A stretch of 64,000 nt of DNA from an uncultured Clostridium sp. Its GTDB lineage: Bacteria > Bacillota > Clostridia > Lachnospirales > Lachnospiraceae. Positions 11,041-26,786 of the stretch are shown here, piece by piece (the first letter of the stretch is position 1; each line of letters starts with the position of its first letter). The stretch covers positions 248,001-312,000 of the forward strand of contig UPYT01000001.1 of NCBI GenBank assembly GCA_900538475.1, written 5' to 3'. Position numbers and translations under genes: made by a program. The notes below the pieces were generated by a model, which was not told where the DNA came from, did not search any database, and saw only the letters and a list, made by a program, of their open reading frames with translations.

Positions 11041-11083
11041 GACGCAGCAAACGTTGGGGGACGGTTGCTGCGTCTGTTTTTTT
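11041..11083 (+). terminator. Rho-independent terminator of the glycan operon
   Basis: GACGCAGCAAACG (11041-11053) pairs with CGGTTGCTGCGTC (11062-11074), then a run of T at 11076-11083. Confidence 0.85.
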
Positions 11084-11210
11084 GTGTCATAGGAAAGTGC
11101 GTCCTATGACATAAAAACGCCTCCGCGAGGATCGCCATGGGTTGGAAGAGAATTGGGCCGATGAGACGACCCGCCGCAGGCGGAGAAGCTCGCGAGCGGG
11201 CTTCTTTTTT
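11084..11210. repeat. Cluster of inverted repeats, REP-like, ending in a T-run
   Basis: Much of the 382 bases between the ROK and ahpC genes is structured. TGTCATAGGA (11085-11094) is perfectly inverted at 11102-11111; CCGCC/GGCGG pair at 11171-11183; GCTCGCGAGC (11188-11197) is a palindrome; AGAAGC and GCTTCT (11184-11206) form a last hairpin before TTTTTTT. The part at 11171-11198 resembles 61832-61860, so it may be a dispersed intergenic element. Confidence 0.5.
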
Positions 11211-11238
11211 TCGTCCTCTCTTACAAGAGAAAAATTCA

Positions 11239-11268
11239 TTGACAGTGTCCTCTTTATTTCCGTATAAT
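11239..11268 (+). promoter_or_regulatory. Sigma-A promoter of ahpC
   Basis: TTGACA (11239-11244), an 18-base spacer and TATAAT (11263-11268) match the consensus exactly. The 5' leader to the ahpC start is about 110 bases. Confidence 0.85.
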
Positions 11269-11385
11269 GAAAATAGAATCCCTGTGGAGGGATGGCTGTA
11301 TGCAGAGCATAGAAACGGAAACGAGTGTATTTTATCCGTAATAGATCCGGCTGGCAGGGCAGGATTTTCGGGGAAAGGAGTACGG

Positions 11386-11952
11386 ATGCATCATTTGATT
11401 GGAAAGGAAGCGGAAGAATTTAAGGTTCAGGCCTTCTGCAGAGGAAAATTTGAAGAAGTGACGAAGGAAAGCCTTCTGGGGCACTGGTCTGTGCTGTTTT
11501 TTTATCCGGCTGATTTCACCTTTGTGTGTCCCACAGAGTTGGGAGATCTTCAGGATTATTATGAGGATTTCCAGGAAGAGGGATGTGAGATTTATTCTGT
11601 TTCAGAAGATACCCATTTTGTACACAAGGCATGGGCAGATGCTTCTGAGACTATTCGGAAAATTCAGTATCCCATGCTGGGGGATCCGGCAGGTGTTCTT
11701 GCCAGGCAGTTTGGCGTCCTGGAGGAGGAAGCAGGGCAAGCTCTTAGGGCAACCTTTATTCTGAATCCAGAGGGAAAGATCCGGGCTTACGAGATTCATG
11801 ATATGGGAATCGGTCGAAATGCCCAGGAGCTTTTAAGAAAGGTACAGGCGGCAAAATATGTAGAGGAGCACGGAGATCAGGTGTGTCCGGCCAAATGGAA
11901 GCCGGGAGAGGAAACCCTGATGCCAAGTCTGGATCTGGTAGGACTTTTATAG
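11386..11952 (+). CDS. ahpC: Alkyl hydroperoxide reductase AhpC (typical 2-Cys peroxiredoxin)
   Basis: Peroxiredoxin of 188 residues that reduces hydrogen peroxide and organic peroxides. Peroxidatic Cys48 lies in FYPADFTFVCPTE and resolving Cys167 in GDQVCPAKWKPG, the typical AhpC arrangement and length. The ATG at 11386 follows GGGAAAGGAG and gives the normal N-terminus; the frame stays open upstream to 11137, but that stretch runs through the promoter and repeats and is not credible protein. It is followed 12 bases later by an AhpF-domain-like partner rather than a full AhpF. Confidence 0.95.
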   Translation: MHHLIGKEAEEFKVQAFCRGKFEEVTKESLLGHWSVLFFYPADFTFVCPTELGDLQDYYEDFQEEGCEIYSVSEDTHFVHKAWADASETIRKIQYPMLGDPAGVLARQFGVLEEEAGQALRATFILNPEGKIRAYEIHDMGIGRNAQELLRKVQAAKYVEEHGDQVCPAKWKPGEETLMPSLDLVGLL

Positions 11953-11964
11953 GGAGGTGATGGG

Positions 11965-12654
11965 ATGATAGACATTTCTCTGATTTCTGCAGAAACTCCC
12001 CTTCTGGATGAAAAAACTGCGGAAACTATGAGAGGAGTTTTTCAGAAGCTGGAAAAAGCTGTGGTTCTGAAAGCGGTGGTGGATCTTAAGGAGGAAAAAT
12101 CTGCTCAGATGGCATCATTTCTGAAGGGAATTGCAGGACTTTCTCCAAAGCTTTCCCTGGAGCTTTATAGTCCGGAGGAATCCGGTATTCTTTCGGCTCA
12201 GACCAGAGAACAGGGGACAGAGATAGATGTTTCCCATTTGCCTGTAACCGGTATTTTTGTGGACGGGCTCTATCAGAGGGCAGCATTTCATGGAGTGCCG
12301 GGAGGAAAGGAAATCAACTCCTTTGTTATTGGAATCTACAATGCGGCAGGGCCTGGGCAGGAGATTTCCAGGGCTGCCATAAAAAAGATTGGAAAGCTGA
12401 AGCGGCCAGCCGATGTGAAGATTTGTGTTTCTCTGGCCTGTCATCACTGCCCTGGCGTGGTGATTGCCAGTCAGCGGATTGCCATGTTAAATCCCCTGGT
12501 TCAGGCTCAGATGTACGATGCCAATTTGTATCCGGATTTGGTGGAAGCCTATCAGATTGAGCGGGTTCCTCTGGTTATTATTAACGACAGTCAGGTTTAT
12601 ACAGGACCCCGGAGTATTGAGGATCTGACCCAGCTTTTGCTGGATGCCAGGTAA
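11965..12654 (+). CDS. Stand-alone AhpF N-terminal-like (tandem thioredoxin fold) dithiol protein
   Basis: Protein of 229 residues matching only the N-terminal domain of AhpF, the part that passes electrons to AhpC. The redox motif is C159-H-H-C162 (SLACHHCPGV), followed by a cis-Pro region (ERVPLVIIND) and the typical thioredoxin-like end. The flavin and NADH domains of AhpF are absent; the frame ends cleanly with a stop and no reductase sequence follows, so this is a natural split form rather than a frameshift. An AGGGAGGTGATGGG site precedes the ATG. It probably reduces AhpC and must be recharged by a separate reductase; the thioredoxin-reductase-like protein at 24941 lacks a CxxC and is not an obvious donor. 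Confidence 0.85.
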   Translation: MIDISLISAETPLLDEKTAETMRGVFQKLEKAVVLKAVVDLKEEKSAQMASFLKGIAGLSPKLSLELYSPEESGILSAQTREQGTEIDVSHLPVTGIFVDGLYQRAAFHGVPGGKEINSFVIGIYNAAGPGQEISRAAIKKIGKLKRPADVKICVSLACHHCPGVVIASQRIAMLNPLVQAQMYDANLYPDLVEAYQIERVPLVIINDSQVYTGPRSIEDLTQLLLDAR

Positions 12655-12790
12655 AGGAAAAAGAAATTCAACAAAAAAGCAGATTATGTGCATTGTGATA
12701 AAAAAATAACGAATTATTTATGAAACATGCACAATTTAAGCAAAAAGAATCTAATAGAATTTTAAATAATGCCGAAAAAACAAATTACTA

Positions 12791-12820
12791 TTGAAAAGAA
12801 TATGTACAGTGTGCTATATT
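12791..12820 (+). promoter_or_regulatory. Promoter of the glp-dha operon
   Basis: TTGAAA (12791-12796), an 18-base spacer and TATATT (12815-12820). The stretch 12655-12790 before it is AT-rich and shows no gene or clear terminator. Confidence 0.65.
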
Positions 12821-12846
12821 AGAGACAGGAAAACAAATAACATGCT

Positions 12847-12905
12847 GAGAGAGTGAGAGCATAGCGTTACAACAGAAATGTTGTTTGAAGCTATGCTCTT
12901 TTTGT
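12847..12905 (+). promoter_or_regulatory. Leader attenuator, probable GlpP target
   Basis: AGAGCATAGC (12856-12865) pairs with GCTATGCTCT (12890-12899), followed directly by TTTTTG, so it forms an intrinsic terminator in the 5' leader of glpP. GlpP family proteins bind such leaders with glycerol-3-phosphate and allow read-through (known for Bacillus glpD and glpFK). Autocontrol of the whole operon is inferred. Confidence 0.7.
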
Positions 12906-12998
12906 ATTTTCTTGCAGGAAATTTTACAGCTTTATGCAGGAAACAGCAGAGGAATACTACGAAGAGAGAACAGCAGAAAGTAGAGGGTTCATACAGAA

Positions 12999-13568
12999 AT
13001 GGAACAAAGATTTTATGACATGGTTGAGGCAAATCCAGTGATTGCGGCAATTAAGGACATGGATGGTCTGGAGCAGTGCTGTCGGGTGCCGGATATAAAA
13101 GTAGTATTTATTCTGTATGGAGATATCTGTAATATTGCAGATATCGTTAGAAAGATAAAAGAAGCAGGAAAAATTGCGATAGTCCATGTGGATTTGATTG
13201 CGGGACTCAGCTGTAAGGAGGTTGCTGTTGATTTTATCCGGCAGCATTCCGGGGCAGATGGAATTATTTCCACAAAGCCTTCTATGATACGGCGGGCAAA
13301 GGAGCTGGGGCTTTACACCGTTATGCGTTTCTTTGTATTGGACTCCCTGTCCTTTGAAAATATTGAAAAGCAGCTGGTTTCTGTAAAGCCGGATTTTATT
13401 GAAGTGCTTCCCGGCGTGATGCCTAAGATTATCCGGAGAGTCTGCAAAAGAGTCAGAACGAATCTCATTGCAGGCGGTCTGATTTCTGACAAGGAGGATG
13501 TGATGGCAGCGCTGGATGCAGGTGCTATTGCTGTCTCTTCCACCAATCAGAAGGTGTGGCTTATGTAG
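12999..13568 (+). CDS. glpP: Glycerol-3-phosphate-responsive antiterminator GlpP
   Basis: GlpP-family RNA-binding antiterminator, 189 residues, a TIM-barrel-like protein. Motifs include the start PVIAAIKD, HVDLIAGLS, DGIISTKPS, DFIEVLPGVMPKII, LIAGGLISDKEDV and the ending AIAVSSTNQKVW, all characteristic of the family. It senses glycerol-3-phosphate and prevents termination in glp leaders; here a terminator-like leader precedes its own gene and glpK follows, so it likely controls the complete operon. The ribosome site is weak (AGTAGAGGGTTC before the ATG at 12999). Confidence 0.93.
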   Translation: MEQRFYDMVEANPVIAAIKDMDGLEQCCRVPDIKVVFILYGDICNIADIVRKIKEAGKIAIVHVDLIAGLSCKEVAVDFIRQHSGADGIISTKPSMIRRAKELGLYTVMRFFVLDSLSFENIEKQLVSVKPDFIEVLPGVMPKIIRRVCKRVRTNLIAGGLISDKEDVMAALDAGAIAVSSTNQKVWLM

Positions 13569-13575
13569 ATACTTT

Positions 13576-13596
13576 CTGCCGAAGGGGGTTCGGCAG
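13576..13596 (+). promoter_or_regulatory. Short hairpin between glpP and glpK
   Basis: CTGCCGAA (13576-13583) pairs perfectly with TTCGGCAG (13589-13596) across a five-base loop. No T-run follows directly, so it more likely protects or separates mRNA segments than terminates. Confidence 0.45.
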
Positions 13597-13605
13597 TGCG
13601 TATAG

Positions 13606-15138
<1,533 letters not shown>

Positions 15139-15196
15139 GAAAACAGGAAAAAAGGGTAACAGCAAAATTCATACTGTATGAAAGGGGAAATTAATT

Positions 15197-15901
15197 ATGT
15201 TGCCATATATCGCAGAATTTATTGGGACGATGCTTCTGATTCTTTTAGGTGATGGTGTAGTAGCAAACGTAACCCTGAACAAATCCGGAATGAAGGGCGC
15301 AGGCTCCATTCAGATTACTTTTGCCTGGGGTCTTGCTGTTATGGTTCCGGCATTTATTTTTGGCGCTGCATCCGGCGCACATTTTAACCCGGCTCTGACC
15401 ATCGCTCTTGCAGTGGATGGCAGCTTTGCATGGTCCATGGTTCCCGGATATATTGTTGCTCAGTTTGCAGGTGCATTTTTAGGTGCGTGCCTTGTATACA
15501 TTCTGTTTAAAGATCAGTTTGATGCAACCGACAATCCCGGAACAAAGCTGGGCGTTTTCTCTACTGGCCCGTCCGTTGCCAATATGCCTCTGAATATTTT
15601 AAGTGAAGCAATCGGAACCTTCGTTCTGGTATTTGCAATTAAGGGAATCCCTGCAACTGCAGCTGCAGGCGTTGAGAAATTTATGGTATTTGGCATTATT
15701 GTTTCCATTGGTATGTCCCTGGGCGGACTGACTGGATATGCAATCAACCCGGCCCGCGACCTGGGTCCCCGTCTGGCACATGCAATCCTTCCGATTAAAG
15801 GAAAAGGCGATTCCAACTGGGGTTATGCACCGGTTGTGCTGGTGGGCCCGCTGCTTGGCGCAGTAGCAGCTGTACTTCTGTATGGAGCAATTCCGTGGTA
15901 G
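15197..15901 (+). CDS. glpF: Glycerol uptake facilitator GlpF (aquaglyceroporin)
   Basis: MIP-family channel, 234 residues and six membrane segments, letting glycerol diffuse into the cell. Both NPA-box regions are present: HFNPALTIAL in the first half and AINPARDLGPR in the second, the Asp after NPAR being typical of glycerol channels rather than water channels. An AAAGGGG site lies upstream. Oddly, after the UAG stop at 15899-15901 the same frame continues for 27 codons to a second UAG at 15983-15985 (see findings). Confidence 0.95.
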   Translation: MLPYIAEFIGTMLLILLGDGVVANVTLNKSGMKGAGSIQITFAWGLAVMVPAFIFGAASGAHFNPALTIALAVDGSFAWSMVPGYIVAQFAGAFLGACLVYILFKDQFDATDNPGTKLGVFSTGPSVANMPLNILSEAIGTFVLVFAIKGIPATAAAGVEKFMVFGIIVSIGMSLGGLTGYAINPARDLGPRLAHAILPIKGKGDSNWGYAPVVLVGPLLGAVAAVLLYGAIPW

Positions 15902-16000
15902 GAAGCGCTGGACACAGGTGCAAAAAAGAATCAGCAGGTTTCTGTAGAGACAAAACAGCCAGAGTACCTGACTCAAATTAAATAGTGAATTTTGAGAGCG

Positions 16001-16052
16001 GAGCCTGGCAAATGGATATCGAAAGATACGAAGATGCCGGGTTCTGTTTTTA
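16001..16052 (+). promoter_or_regulatory. Hairpin with T-run between glpF and the GlpA-like gene
   Basis: GAGCCTGGCA (16001-16010) pairs, with two wobbles, with TGCCGGGTTC (16035-16044), followed by TGTTTTT. It can act as a partial terminator lowering expression of the dehydrogenase genes. Confidence 0.5.
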
Positions 16053-16068
16053 AGGAGGAATAAGAAAC

Positions 16069-17505
16069 ATGTATGATGTAATTATTATCGGCGCAGGTGT
16101 TTCCGGAGCGGCCTCTGCAAGAGAGCTGTCCCGTTACCAGGTAAAGGCCTGCGTTTTGGAGAAGGAAGAGGATGTGTGCTGCGGAACCTCAAAGGCAAAC
16201 AGCGCTATTGTCCATGCAGGATACGATGCTGCAAGCGGTTCTCTGATGGCTAAGCTGAATGTTCAGGGAAACAAAATGATGGCTAAGCTGGCAGAGGATC
16301 TGGATTTTGAGTTTATGCAAGCGGGTTCTCTGGTTGTCTGCACAGAGGAAGAAAACCGTCCGGGGCTGCAGATGCTTCTGGAGCGGGGCATCAAAAACGG
16401 AGTAGAAGGTCTCCGGATTATTGAGCGGGATGAGCTGGTGAAAATGGAGCCTAATATTTCTGATGAGGCAGTAGCAGCTCTTTATGCACCCACCGGCGGT
16501 ATTGTATGTCCTTTTAATCTGAATATCGCTATGGCAGAAAATGCCTGTACCAATGGTGTGGAATTTAAGTTTAACACTCAGGTGGAAGGAATCGAAAAGA
16601 AAGAAGACGGATTCCTGATTCATACCAATAAGGGCGATTTTGAAGCAAGATGTGTGGTGAATGCAGCAGGCGTTTATGCAGATCAGATTCACAATATGGT
16701 CAGTGACAGGAAGCTTACGATTACACCAAGACGGGGAGACTACTGTCTGCTGGATAAGACGGCAGGAAAGCATGTAAATCATACCATTTTTGCCTTGCCT
16801 GGAAAATATGGAAAAGGCGTTCTGGTATCTCCAACTGTACACGGAAATCTGATTGTGGGTCCGACGGCGATTGACATTGAGGATAAGGAAGGAACCAATA
16901 CAACCAGAGCAGGACTTGACGAAGTAATTACCAAGTGTGCGAAAACAGTGAAAAATGTTCCCCTTCGTCAGGTGATTACCTCTTTTGCAGGACTTCGCGC
17001 CCACGAAGACGGACATGAGTTTATTATTGAAGAGCTCAAAGAGGCTCCTGGTTTTGTTGACTGTGCAGGCATCGAATCTCCGGGGCTGACCAGCAGTCCG
17101 GCGATTGGCTGCATGGTGGCAGATATTGTAAAGGGAATCCTGGATCTGAAAGAAAATCCAGACTTTGTAGGAACAAGAAAAGGTGTGCTGAATCCGGAGA
17201 AGCTCTCCATGGAGGAGCGCAATGAGCTGATTAAAAAGCAGCCGGCTTACGGAAATATTATATGCCGCTGTGAAATGGTGACAGAGGGAGAAATCCTGGA
17301 TGCCATTCATCGCCCATTGGGAGCCCGTTCTCTGGACGGTGTAAAGCGCAGAACCAGAGCCGGAATGGGACGCTGCCAGGCAGGCTTTTGTTCGCCGAAG
17401 ACTATGGAAATTCTTTCCAGAGAGCTTTCTATGGATATGGAAGAGATTACAAAATGCGGCGGCGATTCAAAAATCGTTGTTGGAACAAACAAGGATCGGA
17501 TATAG
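16069..17505 (+). CDS. GlpA-like FAD glycerol-3-phosphate dehydrogenase with BFD-like iron-sulfur domain
   Basis: FAD-dependent oxidoreductase, 478 residues. The Rossmann motif GAGVSGAASARELSRY opens the protein and a DAO-type flavin domain fills the first 370 residues. The C-terminal part has C399-R-C401 and C436-x4-C441, the cysteine pattern of a BFD-like [2Fe-2S] domain, as in anaerobic GlpA. It is expected to oxidise glycerol-3-phosphate to dihydroxyacetone phosphate, passing electrons to the next flavoprotein. An AAGGAGGAA site precedes the ATG. Operon position after glpK and glpF supports this; a hydroxyacid oxidase of the LhgO type is the alternative. Confidence 0.87.
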   Translation: MYDVIIIGAGVSGAASARELSRYQVKACVLEKEEDVCCGTSKANSAIVHAGYDAASGSLMAKLNVQGNKMMAKLAEDLDFEFMQAGSLVVCTEEENRPGLQMLLERGIKNGVEGLRIIERDELVKMEPNISDEAVAALYAPTGGIVCPFNLNIAMAENACTNGVEFKFNTQVEGIEKKEDGFLIHTNKGDFEARCVVNAAGVYADQIHNMVSDRKLTITPRRGDYCLLDKTAGKHVNHTIFALPGKYGKGVLVSPTVHGNLIVGPTAIDIEDKEGTNTTRAGLDEVITKCAKTVKNVPLRQVITSFAGLRAHEDGHEFIIEELKEAPGFVDCAGIESPGLTSSPAIGCMVADIVKGILDLKENPDFVGTRKGVLNPEKLSMEERNELIKKQPAYGNIICRCEMVTEGEILDAIHRPLGARSLDGVKRRTRAGMGRCQAGFCSPKTMEILSRELSMDMEEITKCGGDSKIVVGTNKDRI

Positions 17506-17523
17506 AAGGAGGGGCGTCGAAAC

Positions 17524-18789
17524 ATGAAAGCATATGATATCGTAATCATTGGCGGCGGCCCTGCAGGGCTTGCAGCTGCCGCAGCAGCAAGAAAAAGCGG
17601 AGTGGAGAAAATCCTGATTCTGGAACGAGACAAGGAACTGGGCGGAATTTTAAACCAGTGTATTCACAATGGTTTCGGACTTCATACATTTAAGGAAGAG
17701 CTGACGGGACCAGAATATGCTGCCCGGTTTATTGATCAGGTAAAGGAACTGGAAATTGAATACAAACTGCATACCATGGTTATGGACATCAGTTCAGATA
17801 AGGTAGTGACTGCTATGAACCGGGAAGAGGGGATGTTCCAGATTCAGGCAGGAGCCGTGATTCTGGCAATGGGATGCAGAGAGCGTTCCAGAGGAGCGCT
17901 GAACATTCCCGGATATCGTCCGGCCGGAATTTATTCTGCCGGAACAGCGCAGCGACTGGTAAACAGAGAGGGCTTTCTGCTGGGTCGTGAGGTGGTAATA
18001 CTGGGATCCGGAGATATCGGACTAATTATGGCAAGACGTATGACCTTTGAAGGTGCCAAGGTCAAGGTTGTGGCAGAGCTGATGCCATATTCCGGCGGCT
18101 TAAAGAGAAATATTGTTCAGTGTCTGGATGACTACGGAATTCCCTTAAAGCTGAGCCATACCGTTGTGGAAATTCGCGGAAAAGAGCGCCTGACCGGCGT
18201 TACTATTGCAAAGGTGGATGAGATGGGAAAACCGATTCCAGGAACAGAGGAGGATTATGACTGCGATACTCTTCTTCTTTCGGTTGGACTAATCCCTGAA
18301 AATGAGCTTTCCAGAGGAGCCGGTGTGGATATGAGTCCTGTAACCTCGGGACCGATTGTAAATGAAAGTCTGGAAACCAATATCGAAGGCGTGTTTGCCT
18401 GCGGTAATGTGCTTCACGTTCATGATCTGGTGGATTTTGTTTCCGAGGAGGCAGCAGCAGCAGGAAGAAATGCGGCTCTGTATGTACAGGGCAGACGACA
18501 GTCTGAAGCAGGAAAAGCCATTTTGCTGAATCCGGTGGAGGGTGTCCGTTATACCGTACCTTCTGTGATTCATCCGGATCGGATGGACGACAAGCTGACG
18601 GTTCGTTTCCGTGTGGGCGGAGTTTATAAAAACTGTTATATCAGCGTATATTTTGATGATGAACGGGTGATTCATCGGAAACGTCCTGTAGTAGCACCGG
18701 GAGAAATGGAAGAGATTAAGCTGGAGAAGGACAAGCTTCTGGCATATCCGGATTTAAAGACGATAACCGTAAAAATTGAGGAGGCATAA
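17524..18789 (+). CDS. FAD/NAD-binding oxidoreductase, GlpB-like partner
   Basis: Pyridine-nucleotide-disulfide-type flavoprotein, 421 residues. It has an FAD motif IGGGPAGLAAAAAARKSG, a second Rossmann motif VILGSGDIGLIMARRM near residue 160, and a C-terminal FAD motif GVFACGNVLHVHDLVD. No redox CxxC is seen. It starts 19 bases after the GlpA-like gene behind AGAAGGAGGGG. In many Firmicutes the same three-gene set (GlpA-like, this flavoprotein, DUF1667) follows glpK, and it probably replaces the GlpB/GlpC subunits, connecting glycerol-3-phosphate oxidation to an electron carrier (inferred). Confidence 0.85.
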   Translation: MKAYDIVIIGGGPAGLAAAAAARKSGVEKILILERDKELGGILNQCIHNGFGLHTFKEELTGPEYAARFIDQVKELEIEYKLHTMVMDISSDKVVTAMNREEGMFQIQAGAVILAMGCRERSRGALNIPGYRPAGIYSAGTAQRLVNREGFLLGREVVILGSGDIGLIMARRMTFEGAKVKVVAELMPYSGGLKRNIVQCLDDYGIPLKLSHTVVEIRGKERLTGVTIAKVDEMGKPIPGTEEDYDCDTLLLSVGLIPENELSRGAGVDMSPVTSGPIVNESLETNIEGVFACGNVLHVHDLVDFVSEEAAAAGRNAALYVQGRRQSEAGKAILLNPVEGVRYTVPSVIHPDRMDDKLTVRFRVGGVYKNCYISVYFDDERVIHRKRPVVAPGEMEEIKLEKDKLLAYPDLKTITVKIEEA

Positions 18790-18792
18790 GCA

Positions 18793-19158
18793 ATGGAAAA
18801 AAGAGAACTGATCTGCATAGGCTGTCCTCTGGGCTGCCCGGTAACGGTAACCATGGAAGCCGGCGAAGTAATTAAGGTGGAAGGAAATACCTGTAAACGG
18901 GGCGACGATTACGCCAGAAAAGAAGTGACCAACCCTACCAGAATTGTGACCAGTACCGTTATGGTGGAGGGCGGTAAGGATGTTACCGTTTCTGTGAAAA
19001 CAAAGACAGATATTCCAAAGGAAAAGATCTTTGATTGTGTGAAATCCTTAAAGGGCGTGACGGTTCAGGCTCCGGTTCATATTGGAGATGTGATTCTGGC
19101 AAATACGGCAGATACCGGTGTGGACATCATTGCCACCAGCAATGTAGAAGCAAAATAA
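18793..19158 (+). CDS. DUF1667 protein with ferredoxin-like cysteine motif
   Basis: Small protein of 121 residues beginning three bases after the preceding stop. Four cysteines near the N-terminus, C8-x2-C11-x3-C15-x18-C34, resemble the [4Fe-4S] motif at the start of molybdopterin oxidoreductases, and VIKVEGNTCKRG also echoes those proteins, but no molybdopterin domain follows. Proteins of this family (DUF1667) accompany GlpA-like dehydrogenases. An electron-transfer role between the flavoproteins and the respiratory chain or ferredoxin pool is an inference. Confidence 0.83.
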   Translation: MEKRELICIGCPLGCPVTVTMEAGEVIKVEGNTCKRGDDYARKEVTNPTRIVTSTVMVEGGKDVTVSVKTKTDIPKEKIFDCVKSLKGVTVQAPVHIGDVILANTADTGVDIIATSNVEAK

Positions 19159-19175
19159 GACAAAATGGGCAGAAC

Positions 19176-19207
19176 ATCCCGGCATGGCAAAAAGACCATG
19201 GCGGGAT
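19176..19207 (+). promoter_or_regulatory. Hairpin upstream of the six-cysteine repeat gene
   Basis: ATCCCGGCATGG (19176-19187) pairs with CCATGGCGGGAT (19196-19207) with one mismatch and an eight-base loop. There is no T-run. It may mark an mRNA processing or stability point in the operon. Confidence 0.4.
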
Positions 19208-19294
19208 ACTGCTGATTCGTGGAAGACTGGTTTTCCCGGCAGAAGGAGCCCGGGAGCCATGCAATATGGCAGATATAGAAAGAGAGGAAGGAAA

Positions 19295-19498
19295 ATGGAA
19301 GAAAAGAAAAAAGCTTCAGGATGGAGTAATTTAAACGGAATCAGTGATGACGACAAGACGTGCGGACTCAATGATATGAACTGTCTGGAGGATGAAAAAG
19401 ACACCAGCTGCGGATTAAATGATATGAACTGCTTAAGCGGAGAGGATGACAGCACCTGCGGACTTAATGACATGAATTGTCTGGGAGAAGACAAGTAG
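19295..19498 (+). CDS. Small acidic six-cysteine repeat protein (CGLNDMNCL x3), function unknown
   Basis: Protein of 67 residues, not recognised from any family. The ATG at 19295 follows AGAGGAAGGA; the frame is open further upstream, but that part lacks a ribosome site. After a Lys-rich start and a short GWSNLNGI segment come three copies of the nonapeptide CGLNDMNCL at residues 23-31, 39-47 and 55-63, a strict 16-residue period joined by acidic linkers such as EDEKDTS and SGEDDST. SNLNGISDDDKT at 11-22 looks like a degenerate first unit without Cys. The DNA copies differ at silent sites (tgcggactcaatgat, tgcggattaaatgat, tgcggacttaatgac), so the peptide sequence is under selection. Metal binding, redox scaffolding or a modified-peptide precursor are possible; no modifying enzyme is adjacent. 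Confidence 0.8.
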   Translation: MEEKKKASGWSNLNGISDDDKTCGLNDMNCLEDEKDTSCGLNDMNCLSGEDDSTCGLNDMNCLGEDK

Positions 19499-19598
19499 AC
19501 GAAAAAAGAAAATCTGCGGGGAACGAAAGACCTTTATAGAAGAGGGAAGCAGACAGAATGTACAGGAGAAAATAAGCGGAACGAAAGGAGATTTCAGA

Positions 19599-20588
19599 AT
19601 GAAGAAATTTATCAATGGCGTTGACCAGGTAGAGGATCAGATGATTCAGGGTATGGTAAAGGCTTATCCAAAGCATCTTAGAAAGCTGGAGTGCGGAAAT
19701 GTAGTCGTTCGTGCTGAGAAAAAGGAAGGAAAGGTTGCCCTGATCAGCGGAGGCGGAAGCGGTCATGAACCGGCACACGGGGGATTTGTGGGACGCGGTA
19801 TGCTGGATGCGGCAGTTGCAGGCGCAGTATTTACTTCTCCGACCCCGGATCAGATTCTGGAAGGCATTAAGGCCATTGCTACTGACAAGGGTGTTCTGAT
19901 GGTAGTAAAAAACTATACCGGTGATGTCATGAATTTTGAAATGGCAGCGGAAATGGCGGAGATGGAGGGCATTTCTGTAAAACATGTGGTAACCAACGAT
20001 GATGTTGCTGTTGACGGAAGCTTATATACCATTGGCAGAAGAGGAGTGGCAGGAACTGTATTTGTTCACAAGATTGCAGGGGCCCTGGCAGAGACAGGAG
20101 CTGATTTGGATGAGGTTCAGACAGTCGCTCAGAGGGTAATTGACAATGTGCGGACGATGGGAGCGGCTATTGCTCCGTGTACGGTTCCGGCAGCAGGAAA
20201 ACCAGGATTTGAGCTGTCTGAAAATGAGATGGAGGTTGGAATCGGTATTCACGGCGAACCGGGTACCCATAAGGAGGAAATGAGACCGGCAGATGAGATT
20301 GTGGATCTGCTTTTGGAAAAGATTCTTGCAGATCTGGATTATTCCGGCAGCGAGGTGGCTGTGATGATCAATGGTTCCGGAGCAACTCCTCTAATGGAGC
20401 TGTTTATTATCAACAATCATGTGGCAGACGTTCTTGCAGAAAAGGGAATCCGCATATATCGGACTTTAGTGGGAGAATATATGACCTCTATTGAGATGCA
20501 GGGCTTTTCTATTTCCCTGCTGAAGCTGGATGAGGAGATGAAGCAGCTTCTGGATGCAGAGGCAGATACACCGGCTTGGAAAGAATAG
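19599..20588 (+). CDS. dhaK: Dihydroxyacetone kinase substrate-binding subunit DhaK
   Basis: DhaK subunit, 329 residues, which holds dihydroxyacetone as a hemiaminal on a histidine while DhaL supplies phosphate. The GGGSGHEPAHGGFVG motif near residue 50 and His218 in GIGIHGEPGTH, the equivalent of the E. coli covalent His230, are present. An AAAGGAGATTT site precedes the ATG. It is followed by dhaL and dhaM, forming the complete PTS-dependent dihydroxyacetone kinase. Confidence 0.96.
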   Translation: MKKFINGVDQVEDQMIQGMVKAYPKHLRKLECGNVVVRAEKKEGKVALISGGGSGHEPAHGGFVGRGMLDAAVAGAVFTSPTPDQILEGIKAIATDKGVLMVVKNYTGDVMNFEMAAEMAEMEGISVKHVVTNDDVAVDGSLYTIGRRGVAGTVFVHKIAGALAETGADLDEVQTVAQRVIDNVRTMGAAIAPCTVPAAGKPGFELSENEMEVGIGIHGEPGTHKEEMRPADEIVDLLLEKILADLDYSGSEVAVMINGSGATPLMELFIINNHVADVLAEKGIRIYRTLVGEYMTSIEMQGFSISLLKLDEEMKQLLDAEADTPAWKE

Positions 20589-20607
20589 GAATCAGGAGGA
20601 GAAAACA

Positions 20608-21234
20608 ATGGCAGATAACAAAATGGTGCTTTTGGTTTTAAAGAGAATTGGAGAAAAAATCGAAGCAGAAAAGGAATATCTTACAGAGCTGGATCAGCCT
20701 ATCGGAGACAGTGATCATGGGATCAATCTGGCCAGAGGATTTCAGGAAGTGGAGAATAAACTGCCATCGATGGAAGATAAGGATATTGGAACGATTCTGA
20801 AAACAGCAGGAATGGCTCTAGTATCAAAAGTAGGAGGTGCTTCCGGGCCTCTTTATGGATCGGCATTTATGAAAATGGGCATGGCTTTAAATGGAAAAAT
20901 GGATATGGATATGAATGATTTTCTCGGAGCTGTAGAGGCTGCTGTCGAAGCGGTGAAGCAGAGAGGAAAGGCAACCGTGGAGGAAGCTACCATGCTGGAT
21001 GCTATGGTTCCGGCTTTAGATGCCATGAAACAGGCAGCAGCAGACGGAATGGACAGAAATGGCGTTCTGGAGGCTGGCTGCAAAGCATCCTGGGCTGGTG
21101 CAGAGCATACCAAGGATCTGGTGGCAACAAAGGGCCGCGCCAGCTATGTAGGAGAGCGGGGGCTGGGACACCAGGATCCGGGAGCCACGTCCTTTTCCTT
21201 TATGTTGGAAACGGTAAAAAATACTCTGAGCTAG
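20608..21234 (+). CDS. dhaL: Dihydroxyacetone kinase ADP-binding subunit DhaL
   Basis: DhaL subunit, 208 residues. It carries a tightly bound ADP that is rephosphorylated by DhaM and passes phosphate to dihydroxyacetone on DhaK. Metal-binding aspartates Asp29, Asp34 and Asp36 sit in LDQPIGDSDHG, followed by SKVGGASGPLYG. The ATG at 20608 is preceded by AGGAGGAG; the frame is open slightly upstream inside dhaK, but there is no ribosome site there. Confidence 0.96.
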   Translation: MADNKMVLLVLKRIGEKIEAEKEYLTELDQPIGDSDHGINLARGFQEVENKLPSMEDKDIGTILKTAGMALVSKVGGASGPLYGSAFMKMGMALNGKMDMDMNDFLGAVEAAVEAVKQRGKATVEEATMLDAMVPALDAMKQAAADGMDRNGVLEAGCKASWAGAEHTKDLVATKGRASYVGERGLGHQDPGATSFSFMLETVKNTLS

Positions 21235-21250
21235 GAAAGGGGAGAACAGG

Positions 21251-21634
21251 ATGGTTGGATTTGTAATCGTTTCTCACAGCAGAAAGCTGGCTGAGGGTGT
21301 TGTGGAATTGGCAAAAATGATGGCTCCGGATGTCCCTCAGGTCGCCGCAGGCGGCCTGGAGGACGGAAGCTTTGGTACCAGCTTTGAGCGAATTCTGGAG
21401 GCTGTTAATGAGATATACTCAGAGGACGGAGTCATTGTGCTGATGGATCTGGGCAGCGCGGTGATGACCACGGAGATGGTACTGGAGGCTCTGGATGGAC
21501 AGAAGCTGGCAATGGCAGACTGCCCTCTGGTAGAGGGCGCTGTTGTGGCAGCCGTGAATGCAGCCGGAGGAATGAGCTTTGAAGAGATTTTAAAGGATTT
21601 GGAAAAGGTTCGAGATATGAAAAAGCTCTCATAA
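21251..21634 (+). CDS. dhaM: Dihydroxyacetone kinase phosphotransfer subunit DhaM (EIIA domain only)
   Basis: DhaM of 127 residues with the phosphorylatable His9 in FVIVSHSRKLAEG and the VLMDLGSAVMTTEM motif. Only the EIIA(mannose)-like domain is present; the HPr and EI-like domains of E. coli DhaM are missing, as is normal for Firmicutes, so general HPr must phosphorylate it. It ends the operon. No glycerol dehydrogenase gene lies in this cluster. Confidence 0.94.
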   Translation: MVGFVIVSHSRKLAEGVVELAKMMAPDVPQVAAGGLEDGSFGTSFERILEAVNEIYSEDGVIVLMDLGSAVMTTEMVLEALDGQKLAMADCPLVEGAVVAAVNAAGGMSFEEILKDLEKVRDMKKLS

Positions 21635-21677
21635 AGATAATAATTATTTTGTTATCAGTTTAATCAAATACAGGTAT

Positions 21678-21706
21678 TTTACATATTGCTTAAACTGGGG
21701 TATGAT
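21678..21706 (+). promoter_or_regulatory. Promoter of the chromate-type transporter genes
   Basis: TTTACA (21678-21683), 17-base spacer, TATGAT (21701-21706), 51 bases upstream of the first transporter start. Confidence 0.55.
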
Positions 21707-21756
21707 TTTCTTCGAAAGAAACACAGAAAAAGTGAAGCTTAAGGAGGAAAATACCA

Positions 21757-22365
21757 ATGAATAAGCAAGTATGGAAAGAAACAAAGCCCGGAAAGCTGTG
21801 GACACTGTTCCGGGCTATGTTTGTGTTAAGCGCCTGTACCTTTGGAGGCGGGTTTGTGATTGTATCTCTGATGAAAAAGAAGTTTGTTGAGGAACTGGGG
21901 TGGCTGGATGAAGCAGAAATGCTGGATATTACAGCCATTACTCAATCCGCGCCAGGTCCGCTTCCGGTAAATGCCTCAGTGATTATTGGATACCGGATCT
22001 GTGGAGTGACAGGTGCTTTGGCTGCAGTTCTTGGAACAATTATTCCGCCGATGGCAATTATTTCCCTGATCTGTGTATTTTACACAGAATTTCGCACCAA
22101 TGCCTACATTGCTTTGGCCCTTCAGGTGATGCGGGCCGGTGTGGCGGCAGTGATTGCAGATGTTGCCTGGAATCTGGCAAAGAATGTGTGGGATATGGGT
22201 TCTGTTTTTTATACGGGTCTTATGAGTGCAGCTTTTGTGGCAACCTGCTTTCTGAATATCAGCGCTATGACAGTGATTCTCATTTGTCTGGGTGTGGGCA
22301 TATTTCAGGCATGGTGGAATGCAGCGTCAGTGAAGGGAGGAAAAAAACGTGAATATGCTTGTTAA
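21757..22365 (+). CDS. Chromate transporter family protein (short form, subunit 1)
   Basis: Membrane protein of 202 residues from the CHR family. It has the family signature FGGGFVIVSLM near residue 30 and APGPLPVNASVIIGYR near 68, with about five to six hydrophobic segments. Short-chain CHR proteins come in pairs of half-size proteins that work together; the second overlaps by 17 bases. Chromate efflux is the classic activity, but in anaerobic gut bacteria the natural substrate may be sulfate or another oxyanion. An AAGGAGGAAA site precedes the ATG. Confidence 0.9.
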   Translation: MNKQVWKETKPGKLWTLFRAMFVLSACTFGGGFVIVSLMKKKFVEELGWLDEAEMLDITAITQSAPGPLPVNASVIIGYRICGVTGALAAVLGTIIPPMAIISLICVFYTEFRTNAYIALALQVMRAGVAAVIADVAWNLAKNVWDMGSVFYTGLMSAAFVATCFLNISAMTVILICLGVGIFQAWWNAASVKGGKKREYAC

Positions 22366-22933
22366 ACTGTTTTTTGCCTTTATTCAGGTAGGTCTGTTTT
22401 CCGTTGGAGGAGGATATGCTGCGATTCCTCTGATTCAGGCTCAAATTGTAAATATTCACAGGTTGATGTCCATGGAAGAGTTTACGGATTTGATTACCAT
22501 TGCAGAAATGACTCCCGGGCCAGTATCCATTAATTCTTCCACCTTTGTGGGAACAAGACTGGGCGGACTGGGCGGAGCAATTTTATGTACTCTGGGATGT
22601 ATCCTTCCATCCTTTTTCATCTGCCTGACGCTGGCATATTTTTATTACAAATATCGTTCCTTTTCTGGCGTACAGACGGTTCTGGCCGCTATGCGGCCGG
22701 CTGTAGTGGCCCTGATTGGCTCTGCAGGTTTTTCCATTCTTTTACTGGCTTTGTTTGACTCTGGGCTATCTGGTCTTCAGGCAGAAAATCTGAAAATCGT
22801 GGAGCTGGTTCTTTTTGCAGGAGGTCTGTTTTTGCTTCGCCGGTTCCGGGAAAAGGTGGGAGCCATTCAGATTATCTTCGGTTCCGGAGTTGTGGGAACG
22901 GCGGCCTATCTGATAGGAGGCCTTTTCCTGTAA
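22349..22933 (+). CDS. Chromate transporter family protein (short form, subunit 2)
   Basis: Partner of the preceding transporter, 194 residues, with matching signatures SVGGGYAAIPLI and TPGPVSINSSTFVGTR and several hydrophobic helices. The GTG at 22349 lies eight bases after GGGAGG and overlaps the end of the first gene; an ATG at 22355 is an alternative start. It ends 15 bases before the convergent LysR gene. Confidence 0.9.
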   Translation: MNMLVKLFFAFIQVGLFSVGGGYAAIPLIQAQIVNIHRLMSMEEFTDLITIAEMTPGPVSINSSTFVGTRLGGLGGAILCTLGCILPSFFICLTLAYFYYKYRSFSGVQTVLAAMRPAVVALIGSAGFSILLLALFDSGLSGLQAENLKIVELVLFAGGLFLLRRFREKVGAIQIIFGSGVVGTAAYLIGGLFL

Positions 22934-22947
22934 AGAGAGTACAGCTG

Positions 22948-23850
22948 TCAGGAGACAGGCTCTCCGATAACAGAGCAGAGTGAGAGGCGGCACAGCTTGG
23001 CCAAACCTTCCATTTCCGGAGAAAGCAGCTTGTCTTTGTGATAGACCAGCCGGATATCCCGGCGGATATGAACCTGCTCCAGAGAAAGGGCAGTCAGTTT
23101 CTTCTCCTTCAGATACGGTTCAACCAGCATTCTGGAGAGAATAGCAAGCCCATGTCCGGCTAAAACAGCATTGATAATTGCCTGGGTGTTGGTGCAGGTC
23201 CAGCTTTTTGTCAAAGGAATATGGTGGCTTTGAAGAAACTGCTCAAACTGATTGCGATCGTTGCTTCCGGATTCCCGGGAAATAAAGGTTTCTCCGGCCA
23301 GTCGCTCTATGGGAATACAGGGCTGGCTGGCCAGAGGATGATTTGGCGGAGCAACAATTAAAAGTTCATCTTCGCATACCCTTGTGCAGAGCAGGTCTGG
23401 ATTTACAATGGTGCCTTCAACAATACCTGCATCCAGCTGGCTTTCCAGAAGCATTTGCTCGATTCGGCTGGTATTGTTGACTGTAACCTGAAGATCTATG
23501 TCAGGGTGTCTGATTTTCAGCTGACTGGCGAGTTCCGGAATCAGGCAGGTACCTACCGATACGCTGGCTCCCAGCCGCAGACATTGGTAGGTTCCCTGGG
23601 AAATCAGAAGCTGTTCCATATCTTCGTAGGTTCTGAGCAAACGATAGGCATAGGCTAAAAGCTTTTCCCCGGCCGCAGTAATGTAAAGCCTCTGAGAAAG
23701 CCGCTCAAACAGCTGTACATGGTATTCTTTTTCCAGCTCGGAAATTGCCTGACTGACAGATGGCTGGGAGATATACAGTTTTTTTGCCGCTGCATGCATG
23801 GTCTTCTCTTCGGCAATTGTCACAAATATTCGGATAGTTCTTAGTGTCAT
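22948..23850 (-). CDS. LysR-family transcriptional regulator
   Basis: LysR-type regulator of 300 residues. The winged helix-turn-helix covers residues 1-60 (TMHAAAKKLYISQPSVSQAI), followed by a periplasmic-binding-protein-like effector domain. It lies convergent to the chromate-type transporter and 39 bases downstream of a second LysR gene on the same strand, so both may be one transcript. Target and effector are unknown; the transporter pair or the flavoprotein at 24941 are candidates. Confidence 0.9.
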   Translation of the reverse strand: MTLRTIRIFVTIAEEKTMHAAAKKLYISQPSVSQAISELEKEYHVQLFERLSQRLYITAAGEKLLAYAYRLLRTYEDMEQLLISQGTYQCLRLGASVSVGTCLIPELASQLKIRHPDIDLQVTVNNTSRIEQMLLESQLDAGIVEGTIVNPDLLCTRVCEDELLIVAPPNHPLASQPCIPIERLAGETFISRESGSNDRNQFEQFLQSHHIPLTKSWTCTNTQAIINAVLAGHGLAILSRMLVEPYLKEKKLTALSLEQVHIRRDIRLVYHKDKLLSPEMEGLAKLCRLSLCSVIGEPVS

Positions 23851-23889
23851 AACGATTCCTTTCTGCTCCTTTCTGGCGCATGTCTTTTT

Positions 23890-24768
23890 TTATTTCTGTA
23901 ATTCCTGGAAAATTGCTTCGTACTGAGCAGAAAAAATACTGTCTTTATTCCAGATAAATGAAAAATCGTGTGCGATTTTAAAATCAGATAAAGGAATTTC
24001 TATAAGGGTTTTGTCTTCCAGTTCTTTTTGGACAGCAGACTGGTACAAAAATGAAATTCCACAGTCCTCCCGTAGCAGAGAAACGATGGCATGAATATTT
24101 TCTATTTCGATAATATGGGAAAAATCTTCTGCAGACAGGTTGTTGAGGGCCAGGATTTTCGTAAGAATAGCCCGTGTTCCGGAACCGTGCTCTCTCAGAA
24201 GAAGACGTTCGCCTGTCAGATCCCGCAGGCAGGAAACAGGCTTTTGAAAAATATGTTTGCTGGAGGCAACGCCGATAAAGGGTTCCTTTTGGAGAATTCG
24301 TGTAGTGTAAAGATCTTCCCTAAAATACCCCTCAACAATAGCAAAATCAAGAGTTCCTTCCCGAAGGCGAGAAAGAAGTGTCTGAGTATTGCCGTAGCAG
24401 ATATGGATCTCCCATTGTGGATGGGCTTTTAAAAAGCGGGCAAGGGAGGGAATGACAGCGTATTCTCCTATTGTCATAGTAACGCCAAAGGTCAGTCCCT
24501 TTTTTCCTGCCATACTTTGCTGCATCCTGATTTTCATCCGATGATCATCGCTTTGCAGAGTTTCTAGAGAGTCCTTCAGAATCTGCCCGGCGTCTGTCAG
24601 ATAGAGTTTCTTTTTCTCACGGATAAATAAAGGTGTATCATATTGCTCCTCCAGATAGCGGATATGCTGGGAAACAGCAGGCTGTGTCAGATTCAATACC
24701 TGAGCCGCCCGAGTAAAGTTCATACATTCACATACAGTTAAAAATGTTTTCATACGAAAATCAATCAT
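23890..24768 (-). CDS. LysR-family transcriptional regulator (divergent from the flavoprotein at 24941)
   Basis: LysR regulator of 292 residues with helix-turn-helix NFTRAAQVLNLTQPAVSQHI and an effector domain of the CysB/CbbR-like fold. It is divergent from the thioredoxin-reductase-like gene; the 172-base gap is AT-rich with several ATA/TAT inverted elements that could hold its binding site. Control of the divergent gene is likely by the usual LysR layout (inferred). Confidence 0.9.
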   Translation of the reverse strand: MIDFRMKTFLTVCECMNFTRAAQVLNLTQPAVSQHIRYLEEQYDTPLFIREKKKLYLTDAGQILKDSLETLQSDDHRMKIRMQQSMAGKKGLTFGVTMTIGEYAVIPSLARFLKAHPQWEIHICYGNTQTLLSRLREGTLDFAIVEGYFREDLYTTRILQKEPFIGVASSKHIFQKPVSCLRDLTGERLLLREHGSGTRAILTKILALNNLSAEDFSHIIEIENIHAIVSLLREDCGISFLYQSAVQKELEDKTLIEIPLSDFKIAHDFSFIWNKDSIFSAQYEAIFQELQK

Positions 24769-24838
24769 AGTTTGACACCTCCAAGAACAGGATATTTATA
24801 TCATAATATAAATTTATTATATAATCAATATACATAAT

Positions 24839-24867
24839 TTTACAAAATGATAAAACAGATCTATATT
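24839..24867 (+). promoter_or_regulatory. Promoter of the thioredoxin-reductase-like gene
   Basis: TTTACA (24839-24844), 17-base spacer, TATATT (24862-24867), in the divergent gap with the LysR gene. Confidence 0.55.
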
Positions 24868-24940
24868 ATAGAGGAAGGAAACAAGAGACAGGCCGGAGAC
24901 GGCTAGGGAAGAGAACAAGAAGGTCAGGAGGAGCAAAGCT

Positions 24941-25840
24941 ATGTATGATGTAATTATTATCGGAGCAGGTCCCGCAGGTATCAGTGCTGGAATTTATTCT
25001 GTAAGCAGAGGAAAGAAAACTCTGATACTGGAAAAGCAGGCCATTGGAGGGCTGATTGGAAAGGTTTCGACAGTAACCCATTATGCCGGAATTACAGAAG
25101 GAGAAACAGGAAAAACCTTTGCAGAAAGAATGAAAAAGCAGGCCATGGATGCAGGCGTGGAGTTTAAAATGGAAACAGTCACTGAGGTGGAGCTGAAAGG
25201 GAAAACAAAGACGGTTACTACGGAACGAGGCGTATATCAGGCGGAAAAGGTGATTATTGCCGCAGGCACATCTCCCAGAATGCTGGGAATCCCTGGAGAA
25301 AAGGAACTCAGCGGAAAAGGAATGACCATGAATGCAGCAAGGGATTGCGATACCTACGCAGGAAAGCATGTATATGTAGTGGGAGGCTCTGATGGTGCTG
25401 TAAAGGAGGCGCTGTATCTGTCAAAATCAGCCAGCCAGGTAACGATTATTCATTTTGAAGACGGGCTGGGATGTATTGCAGAATTTCGAGAAAAGGCAGA
25501 GAAGTGTCCGAACATGATTGTAAGATTGAATTCAAGACTTCATGGAGTTTATGGAACAGAACGGGTGGAAGCTTTGGAAATTGCCGATGAGAGAACTGGA
25601 GCAATTGAAACCATAGAAGATCCGGGCTGTGGAATTTTTGTATATGCGGGAACAGTTCCCAATACGGAATTATACGGACAGTTGAAGCTGGAAAATGGAT
25701 TTATTCCAGTAAATGAACGAATGGAAACAGAGATTCCCGGGGTGTATGCAGCCGGTGATATTCGAGTAAAGGGTGTGCGCCAGGTATCTACGGCAGTGGC
25801 TGACGGCACAATAGCTGCTGTCTACGCAGCCATGAACTAA
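24941..25840 (+). CDS. Thioredoxin-reductase-like FAD/NAD(P) oxidoreductase without CxxC
   Basis: Flavoprotein of 299 residues, the length and domain order of thioredoxin reductase: FAD motif IGAGPAGISAGIYSVSRG, nucleotide motif VVGGSDGAVKEALYLS near residue 147, and C-terminal GVYAAGDIRVKGVRQ. Where thioredoxin reductase has the redox pair CATC, this protein reads N131-A-A-R134, with a single Cys136 two residues later, so the usual dithiol is absent. It may therefore be a ferredoxin/flavodoxin reductase-like or other one-Cys enzyme rather than a thioredoxin reductase. An AGGAGG site precedes the ATG. Monocistronic, with a terminator at 25861. Confidence 0.87.
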   Translation: MYDVIIIGAGPAGISAGIYSVSRGKKTLILEKQAIGGLIGKVSTVTHYAGITEGETGKTFAERMKKQAMDAGVEFKMETVTEVELKGKTKTVTTERGVYQAEKVIIAAGTSPRMLGIPGEKELSGKGMTMNAARDCDTYAGKHVYVVGGSDGAVKEALYLSKSASQVTIIHFEDGLGCIAEFREKAEKCPNMIVRLNSRLHGVYGTERVEALEIADERTGAIETIEDPGCGIFVYAGTVPNTELYGQLKLENGFIPVNERMETEIPGVYAAGDIRVKGVRQVSTAVADGTIAAVYAAMN

Positions 25841-25860
25841 ATTTTGAAAATAAAACTACA

Positions 25861-25900
25861 AAAAAGAGGAAATGCGGTTGGAGCTGCATTTCCTCTTTTT
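25861..25900. terminator. Bidirectional terminator between convergent genes
   Basis: AAAAAGAGGAAATGC (25861-25875) and GCATTTCCTCTTTTT (25886-25900) form a perfect 15-bp stem with A- and T-runs at the ends, serving both the flavoprotein and the aldose epimerase genes. Confidence 0.88.
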
Positions 25901-25904
25901 GGAA

Positions 25905-26786
25905 TTACAAGATCCGGATGCCCAGATGGTAGCTTTTTTCCTCCTGTGGATTCAGAGACTGAACGTGGTGGCGGTGTGCAAACTCATCGTCCTCGTCAGA
26001 ACGGATGGCAGAACCGTTCCAGGGCTCTACGCAGACGAAAGGAGCCTGAGACTCGTAAGGAGTCCAGAATGCCACAGTTTCAAAGCCGGCATAATCAACT
26101 TCGATTCCTTTTCCAGTAGATGGATTTACTACGGAAACCTTTCTGGAACGGATTTCGTCAAAATAAACAGCGTCATTATGGAATAACTCGTAGTCTAAGG
26201 GCAGAAAACGGGTGTTTTCCAGATGAAAGCGAGTGCTCTCTGCATTAAATTCCATTCGTTCTGGGTTGTAAGGCATGGAAGCGGTATTTTCTGTCTGTTC
26301 AAACTCTAACCGATAATCTTCAAAGGATTCTCCTTCCTCAAGCGGGCATACAAAGCCTGGATGAGCGCCGATACAGTATACCATGCGGCTGTCGCCGATA
26401 TTTTTTACGGAATAATCCATGGAAAGTACTCCGTCATTCAGGCGGTAGGTCAGGGTAAGGATGAAGTAATATGGATAGAACCGTAGTGTATTTTCGTTGG
26501 CTGTAAGCTGGAATGTGGCATGAGTTTCGGACTGATCGGAAACAGAAAATTCAGAAGTTGCACAAAAACCATGTTTTGGCATCTCATACCACACACCATC
26601 AAAAAGCGTTTTTCCGTTACGGCAGTTTCCTACAGAAGGAAAGAGGAGGGGAGAACAGCGGGCCCAGACAGCAGGATCTCTCTGCCAGATATATTCCTTT
26701 CCGGAAGCGTCTTTCATAGAAATCAGCTGGGCTCCTAAGGTGTCGATAGATGCAGTTGTTTTGGAATCGCAGATAGTAATAATCAT
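25905..26786 (-). CDS. Aldose 1-epimerase family protein (galactose mutarotase-like)
   Basis: Protein of 293 residues in the LacX-like branch of the galactose mutarotase superfamily, which interconverts sugar anomers. Motifs include YIWQRDPAVWARCSPLLFP at the N-terminal side, GAHPGFVCPLEEGE with the conserved His, and CVEPWNG with the expected catalytic Glu. The ATG at 26786 is chosen because AAAAGGAGAA precedes it; an upstream ATG at 26804 has no ribosome site. It follows the LacI regulator gene by 19 bases on the same strand, so it is probably under that repressor. Confidence 0.9.
   Translation of the reverse strand: MIITICDSKTTASIDTLGAQLISMKDASGKEYIWQRDPAVWARCSPLLFPSVGNCRNGKTLFDGVWYEMPKHGFCATSEFSVSDQSETHATFQLTANENTLRFYPYYFILTLTYRLNDGVLSMDYSVKNIGDSRMVYCIGAHPGFVCPLEEGESFEDYRLEFEQTENTASMPYNPERMEFNAESTRFHLENTRFLPLDYELFHNDAVYFDEIRSRKVSVVNPSTGKGIEVDYAGFETVAFWTPYESQAPFVCVEPWNGSAIRSDEDDEFAHRHHVQSLNPQEEKSYHLGIRIL

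Follow-up and report, generated by a model that had tools for sequence, protein, structure and literature searches.

The gene at 19295..19498 of the window, the 64,000-nucleotide stretch of DNA analysed here, encodes a 67-residue repeat peptide (PEP) that belongs to a real family under selection and is not a chance reading frame. Across its loci PEP goes with ahpC and ahpFN, which encode a 2-Cys peroxiredoxin and a stand-alone protein resembling the N-terminal domain of AhpF, more constantly than with the glycerol genes among which it lies. The preferred reading, at a probability of roughly 0.4, is that PEP is a disordered accessory peptide of the AhpC/stand-alone AhpFN thiol-peroxide branch, in which Cys pairs would gate docking, by analogy with the redox protein CP12.

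PEP consists of four units, of which the first is Cys-free and the other three are bracketed by cysteines (architecture oCCC, o being a unit without Cys):

19284..19291, plus strand: ribosome-binding-like gaggaagg, read by eye
19295..19498, plus strand: PEP, 67-residue four-unit repeat peptide
19316..19339, plus strand: unit 1, Cys-free (SGWSNLNG)
19361..19384, plus strand: unit 2, CGLNDMNC
19409..19432, plus strand: unit 3, CGLNDMNC
19457..19480, plus strand: unit 4, CGLNDMNC

The translation, MEEKKKASGWSNLNGISDDDKTCGLNDMNCLEDEKDTSCGLNDMNCLSGEDDSTCGLNDMNCLGEDK followed by the stop, agrees with the description in the initial annotation: three exact copies of CGLNDMNCL recur with a period of 16, cysteines occupy positions 23, 30, 39, 46, 55 and 62, and codons differ between the copies while the residues are identical. 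Acidic residues number 17 and basic ones 6. Two features favour the start at 19295: relatives are usually about 60-72 residues long, and the gaggaagg lies just 5' of it; a longer frame, open from 19184, also covers PEP.

Relatives were found in two protein searches, with 120 matches listed from each. The first gave 144 relatives (E <= 10) out of 160 candidates and the second, run with an alignment including Cys-poor members, 365 at E <= 1 among 920 candidates; among the matches listed, the closest non-identical relatives have E = 1e-32 and 2e-28. The median NG86 dN/dS is 0.34 (287 pairs, 76 coding sequences), and values above 1 occur in 6 of the 45 pairs listed, all of them comparisons of L033 or L034 with distant sequences. 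The selection that had been read from the codon differences is borne out. PEP is rare, with Cys-type members in 4/299 and 2/300 genomes of two family samples, seeds included.

Profile searches with seven members returned no Pfam or NCBIfam model at cut-off except TnpW, whose match in P0080, a hybrid frame, reached the Pfam cut-off. CFEM (PF05730) was rejected, with 11.2-13.3 bits in three of the seven members against a cut-off of 22 (E 0.09-0.41). PADLOC reported nothing at cut-off for three members, the best PDB match (complement factor B, E 1.1) is taken as chance, and Rfam has no match in window positions 10900-26000. Carriage by mobile elements was likewise rejected: tblastn with the window PEP at E 0.01 found no match in 72,556 plasmid and 50,697 phage records, the ars-type peptide described below has no plasmid match at E 1, and of 14 pattern matches in an IMG/VR scan none was confirmed. 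The string CGLNDMNCL is absent from the papers searched, and of the further motif strings only INNMNG appeared, in a Plasmodium paper; the family was not recognised in the literature searched on AhpF, CP12/peroxiredoxin, type 2 glycerol-3-phosphate oxidase, Cys-repeat proteins, the ArsD fold or Cp34. No description of the PEP family turned up in the libraries, structures and papers covered, and its designation as an unrecognised conserved small protein is upheld.

Using the pattern x-x-[hydrophobic]-x-[polar]-[MLVI]-N-x, in which the N is demanded, 750 units were recovered from 196 distinct relatives (matches listed in both searches, counting fragments but neither the window peptide nor two ars-type sequences). 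Of these units, 433 have a cysteine at each end, 312 have none at either end and 5 have one at a single end, counts that come from related sequences and not from independent events. The commonest architectures are oCoC (108) and oCCC (50), and the third matched unit lacks Cys in 114 of the 189 relatives that have one, while that of the window PEP has it. The 95-row alignment, for which no residue was required beforehand, shows N12, N14, M28, N29, C30, N45, C55, M60, N61 and C62 invariant and M44 kept in 94 rows; mean column entropy among these 95 relatives is 0.78 bits in the cores against 1.92 in the linkers. N12 and N14 belong to the first unit, so the Cys-free extra unit suspected at the N-terminus is real. 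From the unit counts and the alignment it follows that the core, [LIW]-x-[DN]-M-N, is retained where Cys is absent and that Cys is retained as pairs. A conserved core around which Cys pairs are optional has the look that would be expected of a docking motif to which a redox latch can be added.

AlphaFold models of PEP have a mean pLDDT of 47 and pTM of 0.12 with a 24-row alignment, and 61 and 0.22 with the 95-row alignment; they contain no helix of 4 residues and no strand of 3 residues. Low pLDDT is not proof of disorder, and PEP is, on these models, probably mostly disordered.

The same cysteines could be read as ligands. The initial annotation had envisaged PEP as carrying a metal or an Fe-S cluster for the neighbouring glycerol dehydrogenase, and a more general version, a peptide binding Cu(I), Zn or Fe-S on behalf of the glycerol flavoproteins or of peroxide defence, appears improbable. 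Each Cys unit does offer Cys, Met and Asp, and Fe-S-type domains adjoin in the window, but two-Cys units are gained and lost independently and do not obviously make four-Cys sites. Moreover, CxxC and CxC motifs are absent from the window PEP and occur in only 4 of 199 protein records examined, none as a shared motif, no metal family was matched in the profile and PDB searches, and the sister peptide in ars operons has no Cys pairs. As ahp genes are also commoner beside PEP than glp genes, the carrier proposal is now less supported.

The genes around PEP lie on one strand in the order ahpC, ahpFN, then glpP-glpK-glpF-glpA-FAD oxidoreductase-DUF1667-PEP-dhaKLM:

11239..11268, plus strand: promoter-like TTGACA-N18-TATAAT 5' of ahpC, read by eye
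11386..11952, plus strand: ahpC, 2-Cys peroxiredoxin (TIGR03137, 292.4 bits, above the cut-off of 272)
11965..12654, plus strand: ahpFN, stand-alone AhpF N-terminal-domain-like, CHHC (C-terminal half, 343-553, of TIGR03143)
12999..13568, plus strand: glpP antiterminator (PF04309)
13642..15138, plus strand: glpK
15197..15901, plus strand: glpF
16069..17505, plus strand: GlpA-like flavoprotein, DAO and BFD-like [2Fe-2S] domains
17524..18789, plus strand: FAD/NAD(P) oxidoreductase
18793..19158, plus strand: DUF1667 protein
19599..21634, plus strand: dhaK, dhaL, dhaM

The genes at 13642..15138, 15197..15901 and 19599..21634 are presumed from their sequences to be glpK, glpF and dhaK/dhaL/dhaM. The pair ahpC and ahpFN at 11386-12654, 5' of the glycerol genes, had been overlooked in the first reading. 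AhpFN scores 185.8 bits on TIGR03143, where the cut-off is 687.65, and covers the C-terminal half only, short of the full fusion; its PDB matches include 6il7 and 5h29 (named thioredoxin reductase/glutathione-related protein) and the AhpF entries 1zyn and 1hyu. No promoter was found in the window for PEP itself.

Downstream, a thioredoxin-reductase-like flavoprotein (24941-25840) matches TIGR03143 positions 4-304 and has NAARDCD at what we take to be the place of the CxxC of thioredoxin reductases. As a dedicated reductase it was rejected: its matches in all 12 genomes compared are at 29-41% identity and are taken for general thioredoxin reductases, and no dedicated partner was identified.

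Neighbours were assigned by tblastn with the window neighbour genes in 79 PEP loci, obtained by a scan of a species-genome collection from the best 80 of 86 confirmed matches; these include two loci of the same assembly (L033 and L034) and one (L078) in which PEP was not re-found by a pattern search. Either ahpC or ahpFN is present in 69 of the 79 loci, and 60 have one or more glp genes, tallies drawn from related sequences. Seventeen loci, of which seven have full flanks, carry ahp without glp, eight have glp without ahp, and two, both on short contigs, have neither. Among the 36 loci with full flanks (at least 20 kb), ahpC or ahpFN occurs in 35, ahpC in 32, glpK in 29 and dhaK in 21. In the single exception (L035, genome G609) PEP belongs to a glp operon, and no ahp gene is found closer than 10 kb. 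The initial annotation was right in naming redox as a theme for PEP, but its setting, the glycerol operon, was too narrow.

These tallies also led to the rejection of a glycerol-only role as the constant theme, strong as the glp linkage is. The GlpA-like protein scores 323.1 bits on NF033460, the model of type 2 glycerol-3-phosphate oxidase, where the cut-off is 460. Such oxidases produce peroxide, and a peroxide-making enzyme of this kind could account for the presence of glp genes beside ahpC. It is distinctly unlikely that PEP acts as a regulator with the glp/dha enzymes and that its linkage to ahp is secondary, arising because glycerol-3-phosphate oxidation may yield peroxide. The frequency of glp genes, the score of the GlpA-like protein, although below cut-off, and four loci (L012, L017, L035, L078) that have glp genes and no ahp gene close by, and whose genomes encode a fused AhpF at another site, all speak for such a regulator; against it stand the loci with ahp and no glp and a gene order relative to glp that differs between loci. 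One locus (L043) has PEP twice, divergent from ahpC in one case and 3' of DUF1667 in the other.

Neighbouring genes bear equally on the suggestion that PEP is a modified multi-core peptide. A RiPP precursor with three or four cores, its Cys pairs cross-linked by an enzyme encoded elsewhere, would explain the short repeated Cys-bracketed cores and their acidic spacers, but not the conservation of the Cys-free units, and is highly improbable. Inspection by eye of the 45 commonest neighbour clusters (frames of at least 90 residues, 79 loci) recognised no recurring RiPP-type modifying enzyme, protease or exporter. The sole modifying-type enzyme recognised is encoded by a HemW-like radical SAM gene that lies some 8.6 kb from PEP in 10 loci; the suggestion is unsupported. 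Both the metal and the RiPP readings fit PEP worse than docking to the peroxide branch.

Two further loci are unusual. L076 holds two tandem, diverged M-N repeat genes (5175-5733) by an ABC-type cluster and a LysR gene, in a genome with no AhpFN match. In L166 (genome G613) PEP adjoins a decayed ahpC remnant of 48 aligned residues, and the AhpFN match is also weak and broken.

PEP is divergent from a nearby ahpC in 38 loci, and each of these intergenic regions has a promoter-like site 5' of PEP. A TGTCAAA precedes the called PEP -35 element by no more than 50 nt in 30 of the 38, and by 21-25 nt in 22, although some of the -35 calls look misplaced; mononucleotide shuffling predicts 0.16 occurrences. 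Since the loci are related, these counts reflect conservation and not independent cases. The arrangement suggests that ahpC and PEP may share control. By eye, eight loci (L042, L045, L047, L050, L051, L054, L057, L072) have in common an inverted repeat, AGCAATCCGTTCGCATTGCT, which lies in the PEP leader downstream of the promoter, and glpP adjoins in seven of these.

The AhpFN that accompanies PEP forms a clade of its own. A tree of 93 sequences comprises 50 from PEP loci (including the window and G934), 39 from PEP-less genomes of two family samples and 4 fused sequences of PEP genomes; the 50 split off exactly from the other 43, with support 1.0. The inner pair of the CxxC site in the 50 is HH in 44, QH in 3, HY in 2 and SH in 1, while in the 39 it is TM in 33, HF in 2 and AF, SM, NM and SK in one each. 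The loop before the cis-proline reads R-[VI]-P in 49 of the 50 (EKVP in one) and MSVP in 37 of the 39. Because the AhpFN search model was made from PEP-linked sequences, its scores favour PEP genomes; the CxxC and tree results are independent of these scores, but the tree sample was picked by them. The clade has no bearing on function.

The same association is seen between genomes. Among 299 genomes from the family to which G001 belongs (Lachnospiraceae), PEP occurs in 5, one of them of ars type (G276), and an AhpFN-like sequence in 54; the four highest AhpFN scores come from stand-alone proteins of the four genomes with Cys-type PEP, the seed G001 among them. Fisher's test gives p = 2.3e-7 without the seed and 9.2e-7 if G276 is counted as PEP-positive. 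Thirty of the 54 AhpFN genomes became loci and 29 of these were read; the other 24 were assigned from their scores only, which do not exceed 170 bits, whereas those of the four PEP genomes are at least 288. Of 300 genomes in the family that includes G004 (Candidatus Faecousia), two have PEP (the seed G004 and G488) and 13 have AhpFN. Of 392 genomes in the order that includes G276, a Cys-poor model matched four: G276, G779, G934, where PEP accompanies ahpC, a CHHC ahpFN, glp and dha, and G802, whose match (E 0.008, inside a 1165-residue frame) is taken as chance. Fifteen genomes, mostly exceptions or loci with incomplete flanks, were checked for AhpFN: 7 have a stand-alone AhpFN, 4 (G604, G605, G609, G614) only a fused AhpF, with CTMC in three and CGMC in one, 1 the weak broken match of G613, and 3 (G276, G488, G607) no match. 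PEP lies on short contigs in G488 and G607, and beside ahpC in the latter. The fused-only genomes, together with the full-flank locus devoid of ahp, mean that a CHHC AhpFN is not the sole partner. The PEP-AhpFN association is strong but not exclusive.

Such linkage would also be expected if PEP were a gene-encoded thiol buffer or electron carrier, its Cys pairs cycling between dithiol and disulfide as a substitute for a low-molecular-weight thiol and passing electrons on to AhpC, or carrying them from a flavoprotein to split AhpFN. This is a plausible though doubtful alternative. The pairing of Cys within units and the absence from the PEP-side AhpFN of the reductase half of its fused homologue are in its favour; however, it leaves unexplained why Cys-free units and their M-N core are conserved and why the sisters in ars operons lack Cys pairs, and split AhpFN exists without PEP (G020, G210, both grouping with the PEP-less set in the tree).

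These sisters occur in G276, G779 and G003 (L161:8539-8736, L174:1461-1655 and L175:4297-4533) as four-unit peptides without Cys pairs, with a single Cys in the last unit. The gene order is acr3-sister-arsD-arsA-arsC, with an arsR-like gene 5' in G276 and G003. Pfam confirms ArsR, an SBF transporter, ArsD, ArsA and an LMW phosphatase in G276; the ars genes were assigned by tblastn with the G276 proteins in G779 and by eye in G003, the Lacrimispora celerecrescens genome of L020, which also carries a Cys-type PEP. An ars-type query matched only 2 proteins in a large database. The G276 copy sits among recombinase-like and relaxase-like frames, judged by eye. We know of no description of an ars operon with such a repeat-peptide gene. 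Homologues in unrelated contexts had been named as grounds for abandoning the initial interpretation, and the ars operons go half way towards this. ArsD of this context matches 3ktb, described as a thioredoxin-fold protein in PMC3091736, so that an M-N repeat gene adjoins a thioredoxin-fold protein in both contexts. This coincidence, drawn from two contexts, is no more than suggestive.

Under the preferred reading, PEP would be a cytosolic, largely disordered accessory to the AhpC/AhpFN branch, with each core a putative docking motif for a protein partner. The partner would most likely have a thioredoxin fold, namely AhpFN or AhpC, and perhaps ArsD for the sister peptide. Cys-free units may bind constitutively, whereas in Cys units an 8-residue disulfide loop would close when peroxide oxidises the branch and could be reopened by the CHHC site of AhpFN. 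The state of the loops would switch binding, such that PEP might tether or regulate AhpFN and AhpC according to redox state and, where linked, the glycerol enzymes likewise. More broadly, M-N repeats may represent a new class of multivalent adaptors for thioredoxin-fold proteins in gut Clostridia, constitutive when Cys-free (ArsD) and peroxide-switchable when Cys pairs are present (AhpC/AhpFN), coupling peroxide status to glycerol breakdown; this extension is speculative and rather unlikely.

To our knowledge, peroxide handling by strict gut anaerobes is incompletely understood. Standing beside one clade of stand-alone AhpFN, PEP offers a way into the split AhpF system and into the question of how glycerol metabolism might be informed of peroxide status. 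If docking is true, the family would be a natural experiment in which a constitutive linear motif becomes a redox switch through two flanking cysteines.

Several known systems share features with these genes. AhpFN resembles the AhpF/TIGR03143 homologues in the profile region and PDB entries that it matches, but it stands alone, without the flavin reductase half, and combines a CHHC-type site with R-[VI]-P where the others mostly have CTMC and MSVP. The ars operon with arsD and arsA differs in housing, between acr3 and arsD, a four-unit sister without Cys pairs. Ranthipeptide/SCIFF-type RiPPs are short Cys-rich peptides with six Cys, as is PEP, which has no maturase nearby that was recognised by eye and is built as a 16-residue repeat with a conserved M-N core. 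Fe-S and zinc-ribbon proteins are set apart by their CxxC-type ligands, which PEP lacks, and PEP matches none of their profiles at cut-off. CP12, a conditionally disordered redox protein of chloroplasts and cyanobacteria, comes closer: like PEP it is small, charged and of low order, with spaced Cys pairs acting as units, and in some lineages one Cys pair is missing as a whole (PMC9406205). The AWD_VEEL core sequence given there for CP12 occurs in 0 of the 199 protein records, the Cys spacing of PEP is Cx6C and that of CP12 Cx7-8C, and PEP contains as many as three Cys-bracketed copies of a single repeat unit, in other bacteria and beside other neighbours. PEP is therefore not a member of the CP12 family, which is, as far as we know, its nearest working analogue, and its mode of action may, purely by analogy, resemble that of CP12.
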